Below are positions 1-29,243 of a stretch of 37,803 nucleotides of DNA, piece by piece. The stretch is from a virus. Below the pieces are notes generated by a model. It saw only the letters and a list, made by a program, of their open reading frames with translations, did no database searches and had not been told where the DNA came from. The position numbers and the translations under genes are program-made. The stretch is from positions 1-37,803 of the IMG/VR virus record IMGVR_UViG_3300024520_000218; one strand, 5' to 3'. How positions within the stretch are numbered: the stretch's first letter is position 1; every line of letters begins with the position of its first letter.

Positions 1-102
1 TTTCTTCCATCCTATCCTCTTTGTTATCGGGCTTCGGAAAACATTCGCTTTCAAATCCGCTTGTGGTGCGCCACAATCGGGGCATTTGATTTCTTCTTCC
101 AT
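1..102 (-). CDS. Partial small zinc-ribbon-like ORF, runs off left edge
   Basis: The frame opens with ATG at 100-102 and stays open to base 1, giving 34 visible codons. It begins MEEEIKCPDCGAP, with a CPDC pair typical of half of a zinc ribbon. The second metal-binding pair is not visible. The start follows a 16-bp leader that recurs at 2-17. It lies 15 bases downstream of the preceding gene's stop. A second ATG at 8-10 in another frame follows the other leader copy, so two small overlapping genes may begin here. Function is unknown. Confidence 0.45.
   Translation of the reverse strand, partial: MEEEIKCPDCGAPQADLKANVFRSPITKRIGWKK
2..17 (-). repeat. Start-associated leader repeat, copy 1
   Basis: The 16 bases TTCTTCCATCCTATCC (plus strand) are identical to 94-109. 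On the minus strand they read GGATAGG followed by ATGGAAGAA, so each copy carries an ATG. Confidence 0.6.
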
Positions 103-109
103 CCTATCC
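94..109 (-). repeat. Start-associated leader repeat, copy 2
   Basis: Identical 16-bp copy of 2-17. It contains the ATG (100-102) of the zinc-ribbon-like ORF and a purine-rich GGATAGG directly before it. Confidence 0.6.
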
Positions 110-117
110 GAAAAACA

Positions 118-801
118 TCATTGTCGTTGTGCGGCGATCAAATCACGAATCGTGTCGACCGCGAGCCAAAAGAGATTCGCGCCGTTGTTGACGTCTGATT
201 CAAGCTGTACGATGCGCGCGTTTAATGCGGTAACGTCCGGCGCATTGTCGACGATCGTTTGAAGGGCGTCGGCTCGCGCCGTTTCAGCGATCAATTGATT
301 CGACAAGTCGTTGTTCGCCGACAACAATTGTCCGATTTCGACCGCGTTCGCCGTTCGTGTCGAATCGAGTACCGTCGCAAGCGTCCCGATAATTGAGCTC
401 AACGAATCCGCTGCCGCCGACAACGTTGTGTCTTGTGCCGTCGCTTTGACGATATAAACCGCGTCGTTCTCGAAAATTAGTCCTGTGATTCCGAAGGATT
501 CGCCGTCAAGTAGCCCGTCCTTTCGTGTTGTAATCGGATCGTCTCCATGAATTGCAAAGGCGAGACTTTCCCCAAAAGGTATTCCATCGCCGCTTTCCCC
601 AAAGCATCCCGTATCTGTCTCGCCACGGTATCGACCGTCGGTTTCTGATCTGATTGAGTCATGAATTATCACCGTTGCGTTGTAAATATTCCCTTCGCCG
701 GTTTCGCATTCGCGCGGAGCGTTATCGATGCCGAACGCCGTCACGCCGACGAATACGGCGGTCAATAAAATGTTGAGGGAAATCCATTCGTGTTTTTTCA
801 T
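118..801 (-). CDS. Membrane-anchored protein with C-terminal coiled coil
   Basis: This 227-residue protein starts MKKHEWIS and has one hydrophobic segment at about residues 8-24, a signal anchor or signal peptide. The middle part (about 25-120) is polar and acidic and unrecognised. Residues about 125-205 have heptad-like spacing (for example VEIGQLLSANNDLSNQL), suggesting a coiled coil. A second weakly hydrophobic stretch (LFWLAVDTIRDLIAA) lies at the end. Its ATG overlaps the stop of the DnaA-like gene as ATGA (798-801), so the two are probably translationally coupled and may act together at the membrane. No family is recognised; a spanin or lysis role is an alternative, but the early-gene position argues against it. 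Confidence 0.7.
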   Translation of the reverse strand: MKKHEWISLNILLTAVFVGVTAFGIDNAPRECETGEGNIYNATVIIHDSIRSETDGRYRGETDTGCFGESGDGIPFGESLAFAIHGDDPITTRKDGLLDGESFGITGLIFENDAVYIVKATAQDTTLSAAADSLSSIIGTLATVLDSTRTANAVEIGQLLSANNDLSNQLIAETARADALQTIVDNAPDVTALNARIVQLESDVNNGANLFWLAVDTIRDLIAAQRQ

Positions 802-1265
802 CGGACTGTGATTTGTTGTTTGAATTCGTCGTGTAACGTATTGAAAAAGAAATCGATATATGAAACGGCAAACACCGACGCGACGGCAAGCGGCACCATG
901 ACTTCGTTTGCGACAACTTCGCGTTGTTTCGGCGGCGTGTATTTTTCGAGCCGTGTCATTGCGTTTTCAGTTGTCGTGCGTGTCAGTCGTTCGGTATCGA
1001 TTCGATTTTGAAATGCATTCACCGCATTGATGACCGTCGAATGATCACGGCTCAACGTGTCGCCGATTTGTTTGAACGTGAACGGGCCTTGATGCCGCGC
1101 GATCCAACAATACATAAATCGCGCATTGACGGTCGCCGCGTCGCGTGATCGGCCGCGTATGTCGGTTTGTTTGATCAACGTCGTTTCAGATACGGCGCGC
1201 AAAATGTCGGTCAATGAATCGGCGAGGTTCGTCGACAACAACGACGTGATGATTTCGGTTTTCAT
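798..1265 (-). CDS. DnaA domain IV-like DNA-binding protein with hydrophobic C-terminal segment
   Basis: Counting from ATG 1263-1265 (155 residues), positions 64-83 read FKQIGDTLSRDHSTVINAVN. This matches the box-binding signature of bacterial DnaA domain IV (IGD, then RDH-T/S-TV, then a helix). The preceding basic stretch IRGRSRDAATVNAR fits the first helices of that domain. The AAA+ ATPase domain of DnaA is absent, so this is a stand-alone DNA-binding module. Residues about 122-143 are strongly hydrophobic and could be a membrane helix, unusual for this family. A GTG at 1281-1283 or ATG at 1275-1277 would add six or four residues. DnaA-box-like 9-mers lie directly upstream. It is followed by a membrane protein gene through an ATGA overlap. 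Role inferred: origin recognition or a decoy of host DnaA. Confidence 0.75.
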   Translation of the reverse strand: MKTEIITSLLSTNLADSLTDILRAVSETTLIKQTDIRGRSRDAATVNARFMYCWIARHQGPFTFKQIGDTLSRDHSTVINAVNAFQNRIDTERLTRTTTENAMTRLEKYTPPKQREVVANEVMVPLAVASVFAVSYIDFFFNTLHDEFKQQITVR

Positions 1266-1275
1266 GGTTATTAAC

Positions 1276-1405
1276 ATATCCACAGCCCCTACTAAAGAGT
1301 ATTATTTATAATACTATTGTAGTAGTAGGTGTGTGAATAAACTGCCTCATTTTGATTTATTGATTTGTGTCGCATACACTTAGCCTGTGCATAACGTGTG
1401 CGTAA
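1276..1405. promoter_or_regulatory. Cluster of DnaA-box-like 9-mers, candidate origin or operator
   Basis: Four 9-mers resemble the DnaA box TGTGGATAA: TGTGGATAT on the minus strand at 1276-1284, and on the plus strand TGTGAATAA at 1332-1340, TGTGCATAA at 1386-1394 and TGTGCGTAA at 1397-1405. The first three differ from consensus by one base, the last by two. The stretch is AT-rich and contains an inverted repeat. It sits between the GIY-YIG gene and the DnaA-domain-IV gene. An origin, an autoregulatory operator, or both are possible. Confidence 0.45.
1298..1315. repeat. AT-rich inverted repeat inside the DnaA-box cluster
   Basis: Eighteen bases with perfect 8-bp arms (AGTATTAT and ATAATACT) around a TT centre. 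It is flanked by a second pair of arms, CCTACTA (about 1288-1294) and TAGTAGG farther right, so a longer hairpin is possible. It may be an unwinding element or binding site; no T-run follows on the minus strand. Confidence 0.55.
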
Positions 1406-1412
1406 AGTGTTC

Positions 1413-1781
1413 TTATGTGTCGATTTCGTCGAATATTTCGTGCAAATGATTTGTCGACGTTTTGCCGTAAAAATCATCGAAATAATACACCGGTTCGTTT
1501 TTGATCATGTCCACAATTTGAATCGAACAAATGGCGCGAACGTCCCGTTTCGACAACCGAAACCATTCGCCGTTCATTCGCTTTTCTTTCAAATACAAAT
1601 GAATTCGTTTTTCCGTTGTTCGCATACAGGCCGCCGGGAACGAGTGCACGAGCACGACGGGATGTGGCATTTGTGTTGCGATAATTTGTTTTCGTAAATG
1701 CGGCGAATGTTGAGATCGCCCGATTTTGTAAACATTGTTTTTCGTGCCGAGAAGGTAAACGTACCCGATTCGTTTTTTCAT
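1413..1781 (-). CDS. GIY-YIG family protein (T5orf172-type)
   Basis: From ATG 1779-1781 the protein has 122 residues. It opens with GYVYLL (6-11) and VYKIGRS (17-23), the two elements of the GIY-YIG core, followed by a conserved glutamate in TTEKRIHLYL and the segment GEWFRLS. This order and spacing match the T5orf172 / MUG113 branch found in phages. The catalytic Arg and Glu appear present, so nuclease activity is plausible. Upstream in-frame codons could extend it 25 residues, but that extension lacks family features and enters the hairpin region. It lies between the candidate origin and the recombination genes. Target unknown. Confidence 0.8.
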   Translation of the reverse strand: MKKRIGYVYLLGTKNNVYKIGRSQHSPHLRKQIIATQMPHPVVLVHSFPAACMRTTEKRIHLYLKEKRMNGEWFRLSKRDVRAICSIQIVDMIKNEPVYYFDDFYGKTSTNHLHEIFDEIDT

Positions 1782-1837
1782 TTGCCCAAAAAGAAACCCG
1801 ACCCCACGTGGTGCAACACGCCGAGCCGGGTATGAAA

Positions 1838-1879
1838 TGTCGTATCGCCGTTGCACCGGCGTTCATACATGATACGACA
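1838..1879 (-). repeat. Large imperfect stem-loop in the leader of the GIY-YIG gene
   Basis: Perfect 9-bp arms TGTCGTATC (1838-1846) and GATACGACA (1871-1879) enclose a second small stem built on CGCCG and CGGCG. No T-run follows on the minus strand, so it is not a classic terminator. It could stabilise or process the transcript after the gene ending at 1887. Confidence 0.55.
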
Positions 1880-1886
1880 AAACATT

Positions 1887-2462
1887 TTAAGGGTACAAAG
1901 AGGGCTCGGCCCCCGAATCGGCGAATGCCTCAAGGTTCTGCTCCATGTCGCGCTCAAGATTTTCAGCTAGGCGCCGAGAATCATTCGCGCGCCTCTGCCA
2001 CTCCCCACGCTTTTTATCCGCCGCCATTTGCGCGAGCGTTGGAAAATCAAGTAGCGTCGTGCCCCACCGAGCAATAAAATAATACGTTTTGATCCACGTG
2101 TTAATAGGGTCTTGGGTGACCGCGTACACGATCGGGTCTTCGTTGATCTTCGCGAGATCATGTCTCACCTTCATATCGGATAGCTTGAAATGTTTTTTCG
2201 CGACGGCGATCGTATCAAGTACGCGCAGCGGTATCATCTCGACACCGAAGTCTTGTAGCGACACCTCGGTCGCGAATAGCGTTTCATATACGCGGAGCTC
2301 ATGCGTCGTCATCGCGCGAAAAGGAAGCGGGTCGTCGTCGGTCGTGATCGACCGCTGACCGATCAGGCCGAGTTTGTCGACAAGCTCGTTCCATTTCTTC
2401 TGCTCAGCGACATCGGTTAATACGTCCGTTGCTGATTCTTGATATCCTAATTCAATTTCCAT
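1887..2462 (-). CDS. Conserved-looking early protein of unknown function
   Basis: A 191-residue soluble protein with no recognised domain. It has a central region with HELRVYETLFATEV and VLDTIAVAKKHF, and a charged helical C-terminus (about residues 145-185, rich in Arg, Glu and Asp) that could be a coiled coil. The ATG (2460-2462) lies inside the last codons of the RecT gene (11-bp overlap) with GAGGAAAA upstream. The tttcggtt leader motif occurs 21 bases upstream. The position directly after exonuclease and RecT suggests a recombination or replication accessory role, by context only. Confidence 0.75.
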   Translation of the reverse strand: MEIELGYQESATDVLTDVAEQKKWNELVDKLGLIGQRSITTDDDPLPFRAMTTHELRVYETLFATEVSLQDFGVEMIPLRVLDTIAVAKKHFKLSDMKVRHDLAKINEDPIVYAVTQDPINTWIKTYYFIARWGTTLLDFPTLAQMAADKKRGEWQRRANDSRRLAENLERDMEQNLEAFADSGAEPSLYP

Positions 2463-3300
2463 CGTGATTTTCCTCGTTTGTTGTTTCGGTTAAAAATTCA
2501 GGCAAATCCGCGTCGTCGACGGCCTGATTCAATTGAAGCCGGTCGTTTAAGTCCGACGCTTCGGATGTTTGCGGCGGTGCCGCAAGGTCGTATTCATGGT
2601 CGGACATTTCAACGGCGCGATGAAATCGTTCGGAGTTCAGCGACAACCATTTCGACAAATTTCGGAACACGGTTTTTTTCCACATTTCGTATTCCCATTG
2701 CACCCACGGTCCTTTGCCGGACATTTTCGAAAACGCCTTGACCTTCATTATATCGGCTTTCGACAGGTATGTCGCCTGAACACCGCCGTTCGTGAATTCA
2801 ACCAGTGCGTACGCGCCGATCGCTTCGCCGCGATCATCGAGTGCCGGTGCCCAATCGACAAAGATTGTGGTGCCCTTTGTGTAAACAAACAAATCATTTG
2901 TACACACGATTTCGGCTTCGATTCGTTTGATTTCACCGGAGTTGCGGGCGAGCCGCGCGAGTCCTTTATACATCGGCATGAACATGCATTCATACCGTCT
3001 TTCCTTATTGTTGTAAAACGGGACAAGGGCGGCTTCGCCACGCGACGCCGATATGTCAAGACCAACCGTTGCAGCGTCGATGACGGATTGCATGATCGAT
3101 TCTTGAGTGCATTGAAGCAACAAAGGCTGTTTGGTGGTTGCCGTCAACGTGAGTTGTTTCAAGCGCGACGCGACCGCACCGGCGTCAACTCCATCGGGAG
3201 CAACGGCGACGATCGCATCGGTAAACGTATCGAAAAGCGCGCGGACGTTCGAATTTTTTTCGAGCTTCTCGGCGGCTTGATACGTGACAGGGAGCGTCAT
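2452..3300 (-). CDS. recT: RecT-family single-strand annealing protein
   Basis: This 282-residue protein shows the RecT pattern: an N-terminal helical part, the segment SVIDAATVGLDISASRGEAA at about 77-96, then PMYKGLARLARNSGEIKRIE, and a C-terminal part with SKMSGKGPWVQWEYEMWKKT and RNLSKWL. RecT proteins bind ssDNA and anneal complementary strands, working with an exonuclease that makes 3' tails. The partner is probably the RecE-like gene ending 14 bases upstream. The acidic tail after about residue 240 is typical. The start at 3298-3300 follows the AAACCGAAA leader motif by five bases. Confidence 0.93.
   Translation of the reverse strand: MTLPVTYQAAEKLEKNSNVRALFDTFTDAIVAVAPDGVDAGAVASRLKQLTLTATTKQPLLLQCTQESIMQSVIDAATVGLDISASRGEAALVPFYNNKERRYECMFMPMYKGLARLARNSGEIKRIEAEIVCTNDLFVYTKGTTIFVDWAPALDDRGEAIGAYALVEFTNGGVQATYLSKADIMKVKAFSKMSGKGPWVQWEYEMWKKTVFRNLSKWLSLNSERFHRAVEMSDHEYDLAAPPQTSEASDLNDRLQLNQAVDDADLPEFLTETTNEENHDGN
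2484..2492 (-). promoter_or_regulatory. AAACCGAAA-type leader motif (8/9)
   Basis: TTTCGGTTA on the plus strand, 21 bases upstream of the ATG at 2460-2462, inside the RecT gene end. Confidence 0.4.
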
Positions 3301-3305
3301 TTCAG

Positions 3306-3314
3306 TTTCGGTTT
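3306..3314 (-). promoter_or_regulatory. AAACCGAAA leader motif before recT
   Basis: TTTCGGTTT on the plus strand fills most of the 14-base gap between the exonuclease stop and the recT start, five bases from the ATG. Confidence 0.5.
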
Positions 3315-4289
3315 TTAATTGTCAAGTTCGCGGTCATAAATATACGAATATGCCTGATCAGGTAAATCGAGATTCAGAATTTCATCGTCAACATATCCCG
3401 GCCAATTGCCTGATTTGAGACATTCCGAATAGTTCAAAATCATTTCGTCAAGCTGCGACCGACCGGCAACGAACGCGTCGTGTTTGATGCGCGCGCAAAT
3501 GGCCTGAAACGGTGCGGGTGTGTCCTGTGCGAAGATCACGAAGTCGTCGAGTTTATGACCAAGAGCGTGACACGCCATTGGGTACATCGCGCCTTGCCGA
3601 AAATACCCGTATTTATACAACGCCCACGACACGAGCGTTTTGAACGATTGATTCGGTTTCGTGCGTACATAATCGCGAGACAACCCGAATTCGTACGCAA
3701 GGTCTTTTGTCGTTTTGTAATCGACGATCAACAACGGATCGAATGACAGGAAATCAATGCGGCATTTGCAAAGGATTTCCGTCACCGGGTGTTCGAACAA
3801 CACCGACACTTCGAATGCGCCCGGCAATGAAAGCAGTTTTTGGAACGCGGTGTGACCTTGTGCGACGGCTCCCATGCGTAACGTTTTATCGTATTCGTCC
3901 TGCGACATGAACAACACGTCGTCGCGTTCGCCGTCGATTGATTTGACGTGCGTTCCGCAATACCATTTGTTCGCGACACGAACCGATCCGCCGGACGTGC
4001 AACGCGCACCGTCTTTTTTGATCCCTTCACACTGACCGGCCGTTGCGTAATCGGTCGCGAATATCATCGGTTCGAATAACGCGCAATGCCGCGCACGACC
4101 GAGGTCAAACGTTTTCGTTTCCGGCGGGTTGTCGATGTAATCGCGACACGCGGCCGGTGAAATATTGAATTTGTTTCCGCGTGAATTCGAAAACGCGTCA
4201 AGCGCGTGATAAATTTCCGCAGGGACGTCGGCGTAAAAGCCGGGTTCGCCGGACGAAAATTCGTCGGCGGGACGTAATACAATAGACAT
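3315..4289 (-). CDS. RecE-like PD-(D/E)XK exonuclease with inserted zinc-finger-like loop
   Basis: This 324-residue protein fits the phage exonuclease family DUF3799 (RecE C-terminal nuclease type). The nuclease core shows CRIDFLS (Asp179), then LLIVDYKTTKD with Asp190 and Lys192 (the D-x-K motif), and RQGAMY with Gln232 and Tyr236 (the QxxxY motif). Unusually, residues 87-114 form a Cys-x9-Cys-x13-Cys-x2-His pattern inserted between the N-terminal part and the nuclease core, probably a zinc-binding loop. The gene precedes recT and is likely cotranscribed, giving a RecE/RecT-type recombination pair that makes 3' overhangs for annealing. The upstream gap holds an AAACCGAAA leader and a candidate promoter element. 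Confidence 0.9.
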   Translation of the reverse strand: MSIVLRPADEFSSGEPGFYADVPAEIYHALDAFSNSRGNKFNISPAACRDYIDNPPETKTFDLGRARHCALFEPMIFATDYATAGQCEGIKKDGARCTSGGSVRVANKWYCGTHVKSIDGERDDVLFMSQDEYDKTLRMGAVAQGHTAFQKLLSLPGAFEVSVLFEHPVTEILCKCRIDFLSFDPLLIVDYKTTKDLAYEFGLSRDYVRTKPNQSFKTLVSWALYKYGYFRQGAMYPMACHALGHKLDDFVIFAQDTPAPFQAICARIKHDAFVAGRSQLDEMILNYSECLKSGNWPGYVDDEILNLDLPDQAYSYIYDRELDN

Positions 4290-25677: not shown

Positions 25678-26212
25678 ATTCGTCGAGTTCTATTCCCCCA
25701 ATATAGCGAAACGCAAATACTCGCACGTTTTCCCGAAACGATGTTTGACGATTCATGTTGCCGCCGACACGCGTTTTCCCGATCGGACGTTGTTCGTCTT
25801 GAAATTGCCAACACGATTGACGTTCCATGGCGCGGAATACCGGAACGCTCGAGAATTTGGCTCGAACGTCGTACCCTTCGCGCGTCATGTATTCCGACGT
25901 CACGTTGATGACGCGGATTCCGAGTCCGAGGCCGACATAATCAGGATGCACAACCGTTCGATTCGAATGCATTTTTTCGCGCGTGTTGACCTTGTCGCGC
26001 CACGGCACGTAATTCGCGAAACATTGAAACCCGATTTGATCGTCGCCGCAAAACAAACCGAACGTTTCGATGTGCCCACCCGGGAGCCGTTCGCTCAAAT
26101 AATGATACTTGCTAAAATATCGCCATGTGCTTCGGTCGACACGCCGGATGTCGAACTGTAGTTTTTCGCGCCGTTCTTTTTTTTTTAAACGGTGAATGTC
26201 TGTTTGTTGCAA
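25670..26212 (-). CDS. GNAT-fold protein resembling phage Mu Mom
   Basis: A 180-residue protein. Residues 31-40 (RYFSKYHYLS) and 45-64 (GGHIETFGLFCGDDQIGFQC) precede RTVVHPDYVGLGLGIRVINV (85-104), a strand-loop-helix like the acyl-CoA-binding motif of GNAT enzymes (R/Q-x-x-G-x-G). Conserved-looking FSSVPVFRAM and WQ follow. Mu Mom is a GNAT-related protein that modifies adenine in DNA; this one shares general shape and neighbours an ABC ATPase and ParB-like gene. Mom identity is a moderate-confidence inference; a protein acetyltransferase is the alternative. Codons 9-12 contain an uninterrupted A10 tract (26177-26186). It overlaps the ATPase gene by 28 bp. Confidence 0.7.
   Translation of the reverse strand: MQQTDIHRLKKKERREKLQFDIRRVDRSTWRYFSKYHYLSERLPGGHIETFGLFCGDDQIGFQCFANYVPWRDKVNTREKMHSNRTVVHPDYVGLGLGIRVINVTSEYMTREGYDVRAKFSSVPVFRAMERQSCWQFQDEQRPIGKTRVGGNMNRQTSFRENVRVFAFRYIGGIELDEYA
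26177..26186 (-). repeat. A10 homopolymer near the start of the Mom-like gene
   Basis: Ten consecutive A on the minus strand (TTTAAAAAAAAAAG context). It includes two bases of the ATPase stop codon and lies in codons 9-12 of the GNAT gene. Slippage would switch that gene's frame. Confidence 0.9.
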
Positions 26213-26787
26213 TCAAGAATCCAATCCGGTTGCAACCACTCGATGACGTCGTAATGACACGAACACAAAACGAATCGCCGTTTATTCCGACGCGCGTGTT
26301 TTTGAACGGTGTGTGACATTGCTTTGGCAACGGTGCGGTCGACGACGGATGTCCATTCATCGATCGCCACAACGCCTGAGACGTCGTGTGCCATGTGCAA
26401 TGCGATTTCCGCACGTACTCGTTGACCGTTCGACAACGTCACGCTCGGACGAATCCAGCACACAACCTGCGACAATCCGACACCGATCAGCAACGCCGCG
26501 CAATCGTTGTATTCCATGTCGTCGGGGAATTGATCAATCACCGGCCGTCCTAAATCAAGATGTTCGTGAAAACAATCGTCGCCGAATACGTGTTTTGCTA
26601 ATGTTGTTTTACCGGAACCGGATGCGCCGACGATTAAACCGACATTGAATTCGGAATCGAAATCGGCATCAACCGAAAAATGGTGTGTCAATTTCTTTTC
26701 GATATCGATGTCGAGCGAGTTCGCGGCTTTCATGCACCGGAACGATTGCGACGGTGTCGCCGATAATGTTAGCTCATAATTCTGCAT
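26185..26787 (-). CDS. Small ABC-type ATPase
   Basis: A 200-residue single-domain ATPase. Walker A GASGSGKTT is at 54-62, the ABC signature LSNGQ at 118-122, Walker B GVVAIDEWTS at 138-147 with the catalytic Glu144, and the switch His in CSCHYD (178). There is no transmembrane part, so it is not a transporter on its own. In phages such stand-alone ABC ATPases occur with Mom-like genes. Its ATG overlaps the ParB-like gene by 19 bp and its end overlaps the GNAT gene, a tight three-gene unit. It may act with the GNAT protein on DNA; that is inference. Confidence 0.88.
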   Translation of the reverse strand: MQNYELTLSATPSQSFRCMKAANSLDIDIEKKLTHHFSVDADFDSEFNVGLIVGASGSGKTTLAKHVFGDDCFHEHLDLGRPVIDQFPDDMEYNDCAALLIGVGLSQVVCWIRPSVTLSNGQRVRAEIALHMAHDVSGVVAIDEWTSVVDRTVAKAMSHTVQKHARRNKRRFVLCSCHYDVIEWLQPDWILDCNKQTFTV

Positions 26788-27314
26788 TTGTGGCCTCGGT
26801 TTACCATTTCGCCGTATAACGTGCGAAGCTCGTTTTCGGATTCGCAGTTCACGATCAATGTGTTTTGTTCATCTCCGGCGATGCGCGAATCACTGAAATC
26901 AGGCTCGCCGATGTCTTTCAACAGCGCATCGAGGTCGTCACCGTCGAATCCGGTGCCCGATAATCCGTCCGGCGTCTTTGCCAATTCAACAAGCAACGTC
27001 GACAATTCATCGTTTCGATACGTCGCAAGGTCGTTCGATCGGTTATCAACCGTCAGAATTCGCAAGGCACGATCGTCATCGACATCGACGTATTGCACCG
27101 GGACCGTTTTATATCCCAAATGACACGCGGCTTTGTACCGATGATTTCCTGCAATGATATGACCGGTTGACTTTTGGACGACGATGCGCCCATAGAATCC
27201 GTTTTCAGCAATTGATTCTGCAATCGCTCCGACATCTCCCTCGCGTGGGTTCGCCGGATGCGGTTCAATATCTTCGACTGCGACGTCGAGAGTTCCGTCG
27301 TTGACATTTTTCAT
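26769..27314 (-). CDS. ParB/Srx-fold protein
   Basis: A 181-residue protein with an N-terminal ParB-like nucleotide-binding fold: IEPHPANPREGDVGAIAESI at 16-35, then GHIIAGNHRYKAACHLGY at 51-68, where GNHRY replaces the GERR(Y) of classical ParB. The rest (RILTVDNRSNDLATYR) resembles phage ParB-like proteins linked with DNA modification. There is no centromere-binding HTH, so partitioning is unlikely. Such domains act as CTPases or nucleases. It starts next to a variant leader motif (GTTCGGTTT at 27315-27323). Confidence 0.85.
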   Translation of the reverse strand: MKNVNDGTLDVAVEDIEPHPANPREGDVGAIAESIAENGFYGRIVVQKSTGHIIAGNHRYKAACHLGYKTVPVQYVDVDDDRALRILTVDNRSNDLATYRNDELSTLLVELAKTPDGLSGTGFDGDDLDALLKDIGEPDFSDSRIAGDEQNTLIVNCESENELRTLYGEMVNRGHKCRIMS

Positions 27315-27599: not shown

Positions 27600-29243
27600 T
27601 TAGGCGAGGAATCGGCCCTCGGCGGTTTCGAATGTAAACTCGCCATCGGTTGTTTCAATTGCAAACGCTCCGGCTGCGGTTTCGTGTGTGAACGCACCGG
27701 CACACGTTTCTAATTTTTGCGCTTCGCTTACGTGGGCAATCGTTGCGGCAAGCGATTGAGCCGCGATCGTCAACGACGACGTGATTTCTAATTCGGCATC
27801 AATCGTTGCGGCGAGCGTTGCAGCGGCATTCGTCAGTGCCGACGACGCTTCTAATTCGTTATCGATGACGGCGGCAATCACGGCTGCGGCGTTCGCAAGT
27901 GCCACCGATGTTTCCAATTCATTGTCCACCGTCGCCGCAAGTACGGCAGCCGCATTCACAAGCGCGGCCGACAAATTCGTTCCGGTCGTAATATTACCCG
28001 CGAGCACCGGCGCGGGACTCGATAACGCTATCGATGCTTCTAATTCGACATCGATTGTTGCGGCAATTACGGCGGCGGCATTTGATAACGCGACCGATGC
28101 TTCCAATTCGTTATCAATCGTTGCTGCGACTACGGCGGCCGCGTTCGATAACGCTGAACTTAATTCGGGTTCTACGTCTATGTTTGCTGCGACAACGGCA
28201 GCGGCGTTCGCTAATGCGGCCGATGCTTCGAGTTCGTTGTCGATCGTAGCAGAAACGACCGGTGTCGGACTCGACAATGCCGACGAAATATCGTCGAGCA
28301 CTTCAAGTGTGCCCGAAACAATCTGCGCGGCGTTTGTTAATACGGCCGAAACGTCGTTGTCGACATCAATCGTTCCGGCAAGTACAGCGGCCGCGTTGAT
28401 TAATCCTGCCGTTATTTCAGGTTCGACGTCAATATTCGCCGACAATGTTGCGGCGGCGTTCGCCAATGCGACGCTTAAATCGACCTCGGTTACTGATGAA
28501 AACAGCCCCGGCACGTACATCGGCATTCGATTCAGCAACGACGGGTAATCATTTTTTATTTGTTGCGTCGTGTGCCACACTTCTTCCGCCGTGAACGCTC
28601 GATCATAAATCAACGACGAATAAAACGGGAAATTCCCGACACCGTACGTCAGGTTGTTTCCGATTTTGAATTCCCTAGACTGATCGGTACACGCCCCGAC
28701 CGCTGCGATTGAAACGTCGAAACGCCCGTCGACATAAAACGACACGTTGCCGGGATATTCGAACGTCACCGCAATAATGTGTCTTTTTTCATCTGACAAT
28801 ACTCCGGCCGCGTACGCCCACCCACCGATTGAATCGGTTTGATGCGTCCCCGATTGATTTCCAAAACGCCAATATCGTTTGTTCGCCATGTACCAATCCC
28901 AAGAATCGGTTCCTGATCCTTCGACGGCCATGAATGCGAAATCATCGGCGGCGTCGGGTATCATTTCTAAATCCATGAACATCGTACACGACGTCAATAA
29001 TCGGCCTTGCCGCAAATATGCCGGTGCCGTTGACGGTGTTGCGAATGCGTTCGTTTCATTGAATTTGAACCCGCGGCCTTCGCGCGGCACCGTTCCGGTG
29101 TTTGCAGGTACTTCGGTGCCTCGAATTAAGCCGTGAATCACCGCACCGGACGCGCGTATTTCGGCGTGAAACATTTCAACAAGGCCGGCGGCGAACGCAC
29201 TTTTCTTGTTTACCGGATTCAGTATGTCAATCGGCCGGTTCAT
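27600..29243 (-). CDS. LamG-like adhesin with twelve 21-residue repeats
   Basis: A 547-residue protein. Residues about 25-235 form a LamG/concanavalin-like domain (GNVSFYVDGRFDVSIAAVG, then LIYDRAFTAEEVWHTTQQIK). Residues 257-508 are twelve tandem 21-residue units around the pattern S-x-A-L-x-N-A-A-A-V-x-A-A-x-I-D-x-E-x-E. The last 36 residues hold a third, 8-9-residue repeat built on G-x-F-x-x-E-T, with GAF, GAF, GEF and GRF spaced regularly. It is the first of three tandem LamG-like proteins in genomic order (third transcribed). Likely a tail or capsid surface adhesin; the helical repeats could form a stalk. Confidence 0.85.
   Translation of the reverse strand: MNRPIDILNPVNKKSAFAAGLVEMFHAEIRASGAVIHGLIRGTEVPANTGTVPREGRGFKFNETNAFATPSTAPAYLRQGRLLTSCTMFMDLEMIPDAADDFAFMAVEGSGTDSWDWYMANKRYWRFGNQSGTHQTDSIGGWAYAAGVLSDEKRHIIAVTFEYPGNVSFYVDGRFDVSIAAVGACTDQSREFKIGNNLTYGVGNFPFYSSLIYDRAFTAEEVWHTTQQIKNDYPSLLNRMPMYVPGLFSSVTEVDLSVALANAAATLSANIDVEPEITAGLINAAAVLAGTIDVDNDVSAVLTNAAQIVSGTLEVLDDISSALSSPTPVVSATIDNELEASAALANAAAVVAANIDVEPELSSALSNAAAVVAATIDNELEASVALSNAAAVIAATIDVELEASIALSSPAPVLAGNITTGTNLSAALVNAAAVLAATVDNELETSVALANAAAVIAAVIDNELEASSALTNAAATLAATIDAELEITSSLTIAAQSLAATIAHVSEAQKLETCAGAFTHETAAGAFAIETTDGEFTFETAEGRFLA
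27720..28475 (-). repeat. Twelve tandem 63-bp coding repeats
   Basis: These encode the twelve 21-residue units of the LamG-like protein. Third-position divergence between copies shows they are old and under protein-level selection. Copies at residues 320 and 404 replace the AAAV core by SPTPV and SPAPV. Confidence 0.85.

Follow-up and report, generated by a model that had tools for sequence, protein, structure and literature searches.

The window, that is, the whole stretch of 37,803 nucleotides analysed here (IMG/VR record IMGVR_UViG_3300024520_000218), belongs to a tailed phage with genes for the tape measure protein, the major head protein, the portal and the large terminase, and nearly all of its genes lie on the minus strand. 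The linear contig may not be complete, in which case a separate initiator could be located beyond its ends. Searches of GenBank phages returned no near-identical DNA, and a second contig of the same phage (L074, IMGVR_UViG_3300024518_001972), which is 99.9% identical over 4543-32748, does not extend to the gene described here. This gene encodes a stand-alone DnaA domain IV protein (hereafter DnaA-IV; Table 1), and an alternative upstream GTG start at 1283 would give 161 residues. Codon usage favours its frame (+17.9, against -28 to -98 for the five other frames) and the following gene overlaps it by ATGA, both of which support coding in this frame. The product of that next gene (118-801, minus strand) has a hydrophobic N-terminus, and its residues 87-164 are weakly similar to the anti-CRISPR protein AcrF2 (23.6 bits, below the Pfam cut-off of 27; E 0.04 against the PDB).

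Upstream of the boxes, the gene at 1413-1790 (minus strand) encodes a T5orf172/MUG113 (GIY-YIG-like) protein with a weak match to PADLOC PDC-S57, and RecT and an exonuclease VIII-like gene are found at 2452-4289. DNA polymerase, helicase and primase were not recognised among the window proteins searched, and no known RNA family was found in 1-4000. Farther along, a small ABC-type ATPase (phrog_11143; 26185-27314, minus strand) adjoins a ParB-like protein and weakly matches the MADS defence component mad3, and the gene at 27600-29243 (minus strand) encodes a 547-aa protein with repeated LxNAAxVxAxxID units, the DNA within this gene carrying repeats that are 65-79% alike at ~27.74-28.47 kb.

Table 1. 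Features of the DnaA-IV gene and of the adjoining intergenic region
Feature	Position	Strand	Remarks
Stand-alone DnaA domain IV protein gene	798..1265	-	155 aa; ATG at 1265, stop at 798
DNA-binding domain of the DnaA-IV protein	1017..1208	-	R41, R49, D74, H75 and T77 conserved
Hydrophobic C-terminal segment, residues 122-141	843..902	-	Possible membrane or dimer helix
oriC-like intergenic region	1266..1412		147 bp, 35% GC; contains all five clustered boxes
DnaA-box-like TTACGCACA	1397..1405	-	1 mismatch; 2 bp from next box (11-bp repeat)
DnaA box TTATGCACA	1386..1394	-	Exact TTATNCACA
DnaA box TTATTCACA	1332..1340	-	Exact; overlaps the -35-like hexamer of the DnaA-IV gene promoter
DnaA-box-like ATATCCACA	1276..1284	+	1 mismatch; separated from the unit B trios by 4 bp
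Weak box-like TTATTAACA	1268..1276	+	
DnaA-trio array CTACTACTA	1320..1328	-	Reads 3'-GAT-5' three times on the opposite strand; 3-bp distance to box; BUS-like unit A
Two DnaA-trios CTACTA facing unit A	1289..1294	+	BUS-like unit B; one trio below criterion
AT-rich palindrome between units A and B	1295..1318		Putative unwinding site; contains -10-like TATTAT
Promoter-like TTCACA-18-TATTAT	1308..1337	-	Reads into the DnaA-IV gene

The first-pass annotation had read the protein as a DnaA box-recognition domain without AAA+ domain on the basis of a signature that is indeed present in the translation (IGDTLSRDHSTV), and the profile and structure comparisons agree with this reading. The Pfam family Bac_DnaA_C (PF08299) matches with 54.5 bits (cut-off 31.5), and domain IV spans residues ~16-111. 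When the profile of full DnaA (TIGR00362) was applied, only its C-terminal part was matched and the score of 53.4 bits was below the cut-off of 343.9 for a full initiator; the AAA+ domain (domain III) and domain I are absent from the protein, which compared with DnaA is without domains I-III. An AlphaFold (AF2) model, for which the window sequence and IMG/VR relatives were used as input, has a mean pLDDT of 88 and matches the DNA-bound domain IV structures 3pvp_A (Z 17.6, rmsd 1.1 Å, 96 residues) and 1j1v_A (Z 16.8), with rmsd values of 1.1-1.3 Å over 93-96 residues for this fold. In the alignment with E. coli DnaA, R41, R49, D74, H75 and T77 correspond to R399, R407, D433, H434 and T436, respectively, while the equivalents of Q408 and P423 are changed to F50 and K65. 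S76 replaces T435 of E. coli; serine is also found here in full-length bacterial DnaA, for example in that of the loci L078 and L080, the former of which contains RDHSTV. It has been described that R399 reads the TTA part of the box in the minor groove and that the helix-turn-helix reads the TnCACA part (PMC5742627). The phage protein keeps both the minor-groove arginine (R41) and the major-groove D-H-S/T-T motif (R73-D74-H75-S76-T77). Based on the domain IV fold of the model and the conserved contact residues, it is likely that the phage DnaA-IV protein keeps DnaA-box recognition.

Stand-alone DnaA domain IV proteins are common in tailed phages and are not new, and the earlier statement that they are not a standard class was wrong for the stand-alone domain. 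Relatives are encoded by 66 IMG/VR loci, all of them stand-alone proteins of 98-229 aa, and BFVD holds dozens of phage 'DnaA C-terminal' proteins. Olleya phage Harreka_1 gp24, MW202483 UOF77628.1 and the proteins of many uncultured Caudovirales likewise consist of domain IV only, in the same size range. The single-sequence search of IMG/VR gave no close relatives of the window protein. Among the bacterial relatives, four of the five genome hits are full-length DnaA, and the two GenBank 'phage' hits (L004 and L005) also both encode full-length DnaA. Like the gene in the window, the known phage 'DnaA C-terminal' genes sit in early replication/recombination modules, with NinG, ERF, exonuclease, DnaB-type helicase and VapE/primase genes in the neighbourhoods of the relatives; RecT is not a constant companion (1/25 relatives' contigs). 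The literature searched gave no assigned role for these proteins. In a Manatee Spring-type podovirus family (L045, L041, L032 and relatives), whose DnaA-IV protein has 98 aa, several TTWTACACA/TTATCCACA sites are located ~0.7-2.4 kb upstream of the DnaA-IV gene, partly in back-to-back pairs.

The region 1266-1412 contains the box-like repeats that had been noted upstream of the gene, and their excess is local rather than general. In the whole window, box-like 9-mers with at most one mismatch are not in excess (17 found, 20.8 expected), but 1268-1405 alone accounts for five of these 17 and also contains the window's only two exact TTATNCACA sites (1332-1340 and 1386-1394). When the 147-bp region was locally shuffled, the mean was 0.46 boxes, and neither five boxes nor two exact sites were obtained (0/2,000 for each). 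In a comparison set of ~617 kb of other fetched loci, at least four box-like sites per 147 bp were found only beside full-length bacterial dnaA (L005 and L078), and the region 1266-1412 thus matches a chromosomal dnaA/oriC region in box density. Cumulative GC skew, which had been put forward as a check, did not point clearly to an origin at 1.3 kb in this window with nearly all genes on one strand.

The AT-rich inverted repeat of the first-pass annotation was confirmed, with arms at 1295-1305/1308-1318 and outer arms at 1281-1294/1320-1333, and it contains DnaA-trio repeats that the annotation had missed. On the gene strand, the dyad reads TTATTCACA-CAC-CTACTACTA-CAATAGTATTATAAATAATACTCTT-TAGTAG-GGGC-TGTGGATAT. 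The bacterial basal unwinding system (BUS), whose mechanism is treated in PMC10721633, has been defined by a box with at most two mismatches, a spacer of at most 16 bp and at least three trios (PMC8287927). Unit A (TTATTCACA-CAC-CTACTACTA), in which a spacer of 3 bp separates the box from three consensus trios, falls within this definition, whereas unit B, in which a box with one mismatch is separated by 4 bp from two trios, is one trio short of it. The pattern CACA-N2-8-CTACTA has three matches in the window, two of which are one box with neighbouring trios, and all lie in 1266-1412 (0.01 expected). Box-plus-trio units, of which three were found, appeared in local shuffles once in 11/2,000 and twice in 0/2,000. 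Judged by its sequence, the dyad resembles a BUS: it has the box, the 3-4 bp spacer, the 3'-GAT-5' trios and the AT-rich DNA in common with the BUS of oriC in B. subtilis and H. pylori (PMC8287927, PMC6669920). Unlike these, it is phage-borne, consists of two facing units around one palindrome and adjoins a domain-IV-only gene rather than dnaA.

A scan of IMG/VR with the DNA pattern TTATNCACA-N2-8-CTACTA-N15-40-TAGTAG, in which no protein information was used, gave 41 stretches; box-N2-8-CTACTA alone was near chance expectation among the matches listed. The loci used from these scans were those with extra boxes or with a dyad together with a DnaA-IV gene. One of them, L202, carries a double BUS, TTATCCACA-GGCT-CTACTATTATTACTA facing CTATCCACA-GGCT-CTACTACTACTACTA, with five trios per arm and an AT-rich core between them, in a 267-bp intergenic region with eight box-like sites, four of which are exact. 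A stand-alone DnaA-IV gene (105 aa; 37.7 bits, above the cut-off) ends at this intergenic region and is followed by a RusA-like resolvase gene, and the contig also carries a large terminase (TerL) and a ParB-like gene, which indicates a tailed phage. Since the dyad of L202 sits downstream of the DnaA-IV gene, the two phages have in common the adjacency of gene and box-trio site and not a promoter position. At the level of sequence, L202 is an independent recurrence, in an unrelated tailed phage, of a box-trio site beside a DnaA-IV gene.

The arrangement is not universal, as a recognisable BUS lies near the DnaA-IV gene in only 2/~67 loci (L202 and the window) and the surroundings of the gene in the relatives show no enrichment of boxes; unlike the window, the loci of phage 'DnaA C-terminal' proteins other than L202 have no recognisable box-trio origin nearby. 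The boxes near the relatives' genes may have diverged together with the hosts, or the roles of the proteins may differ. Conversely, oriC-like box clusters with trios are found in the tailed-phage contigs L256, L264, L201, L224 and L213, where a DnaA-IV gene is absent from the last three and from the examined stretch of the first two. Two further viral contigs, L151 and L177, also have oriC-like clusters of DnaA boxes and DnaA-trios, and no DnaA-IV gene was found in them; several of these seven contigs carry terminase or tape measure genes. From their sequences, all these clusters are possible host-DnaA-dependent phage origins.

That the locus could mark a phage origin had been proposed before, and the BUS-like dyad and its recurrence in L202 strengthen this proposal. 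We suggest, with a probability of roughly one half, that the phage has an origin of the oriC type at 1266-1412, which host DnaA opens and which the phage DnaA-IV protein regulates by binding to the boxes. The domain IV fold, the contact residues, the box cluster, the box-trio dyad, the early-gene neighbourhood and the recurrence in a second phage were observed, and from them we infer binding, opening by host DnaA, autorepression and timing. After binding to the boxes, host DnaA would contact the CTA/TAG trios and unwind the AT-rich palindrome that separates the facing units. The phage protein would occupy the same boxes and, since it is without the ATPase domain that oligomerises and melts DNA, could not melt the DNA itself. 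It would most likely regulate both the origin and, via the box over the -35 element, its own promoter, and may limit or time DnaA-driven initiation until a recombination-driven mode of replication with RecT and the exonuclease VIII-like nuclease takes over. Host enzymes would drive fork progression, as the searched proteins of the window include no recognisable helicase, primase or polymerase. Host DnaA boxes are also found in the origins of the mobile replicons P1 and RK2 (PMC10797057 and general knowledge), but these have their own Rep and iterons with DnaA as a helper, and neither iterons nor Rep were seen in the window.

Here, we need to consider that the inverted CTACTA/TAGTAG might be no more than an operator with palindromic symmetry. 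The phage protein would then be a plain autoregulated transcription factor, an early regulator of which two molecules on the inverted boxes shut the promoter of its own gene, as DnaA does at dnaA, and there would be no origin. The symmetry of the inverted repeat agrees with this, and so does the promoter-like element, the sole sigma-70-like match in 600-2000 (a number not above chance; 1 found, 2.2 expected), whose -35 lies in the box TTATTCACA and whose -10 is part of the palindrome. E. coli dnaA is likewise repressed through DnaA boxes in its own promoter (PMC5835720), although the phage product is without the ATPase domain and the phage boxes carry trios. An operator does not require trios that are spaced and oriented as in a BUS; moreover, the dyad of L202 lies outside the promoter of the DnaA-IV gene, and other tailed phages have box-trio clusters without this gene. 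We therefore regard an operator alone as unlikely, though it deserves attention. The protein might instead be directed at the host, flooding the oriC boxes as a dominant-negative DnaA and halting host replication, with the phage boxes as a feedback sensor or titration site. A domain IV that keeps the recognition residues and is without AAA+ could, judging from its sequence, bind and not initiate, which suits such a take-over; however, the trios in the phage DNA would be left unexplained and the neighbourhood of the relatives is one of replication and recombination, and we find this reading improbable.

A third possibility concerns the C-terminal part, where the phage protein has an additional hydrophobic helix compared with DnaA domain IV. 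The AlphaFold model predicts a long helix at residues 112-154 (pLDDT 59-91), and residues 122-141 have a Kyte-Doolittle score of 1.95. The earlier suggestion that residues ~122-143 span a membrane is borne out as far as hydrophobicity is concerned, but the position-dependent insertion-energy estimate of +0.75 is borderline on a scale where the clear membrane proteins of the window give at most 0.08 and most soluble ones at least 1.96, the published parameters being checked against the window's own proteins alone. In addition, a proline and an aspartate lie inside the segment, and a hydrophobic or membrane helix is present in none of the 66 relatives nor in the L202 protein, the known phage 'DnaA C-terminal' proteins being without such a tail. 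Judged by its composition, the segment is a possible transmembrane helix, and a role of the helix in dimerisation is equally likely. E. coli DnaA contacts membranes, and the end of domain III, which the phage protein does not have, has long been suspected as the site (PMC3344877). If the C-terminal helix held the protein at the inner membrane, and with it, via the boxes, the phage origin, the hydrophobic segment at the start of the overlapping next gene's product would be in keeping with this. Given the borderline energy, the two residues within the segment and its absence from all relatives and L202, such a tether is hardly probable.

Returning to the origin opened by host DnaA, the notable and new part is the box-trio dyad beside the DnaA-IV gene, which is statistically firm at the level of sequence and has one independent repeat. 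More tentatively, and with clear doubt, a class of tailed phages may replicate from a portable oriC of two facing BUS units opened by host DnaA, with an ATPase-free DnaA-IV protein as gatekeeper, which in the window phage is possibly membrane-bound and would tie the origin to the membrane. BUS elements have been described for bacterial chromosomes, and the BUS survey makes no mention of phages (PMC8287927); according to a 2024 review, contact of DnaA with the single-stranded opening region of plasmid origins had not been shown (PMC10797057). Our observations suggest that this virus makes use of the start signal of its host to initiate its own replication. The box-trio site beside a DnaA-IV gene in two unrelated tailed phages leads to the testable hypothesis of a host-DnaA-dependent, oriC-type origin under the control of a domain IV protein, and phage versions of the BUS would offer compact natural models for studying origin opening by DnaA and the competition between cell and phage over DnaA.
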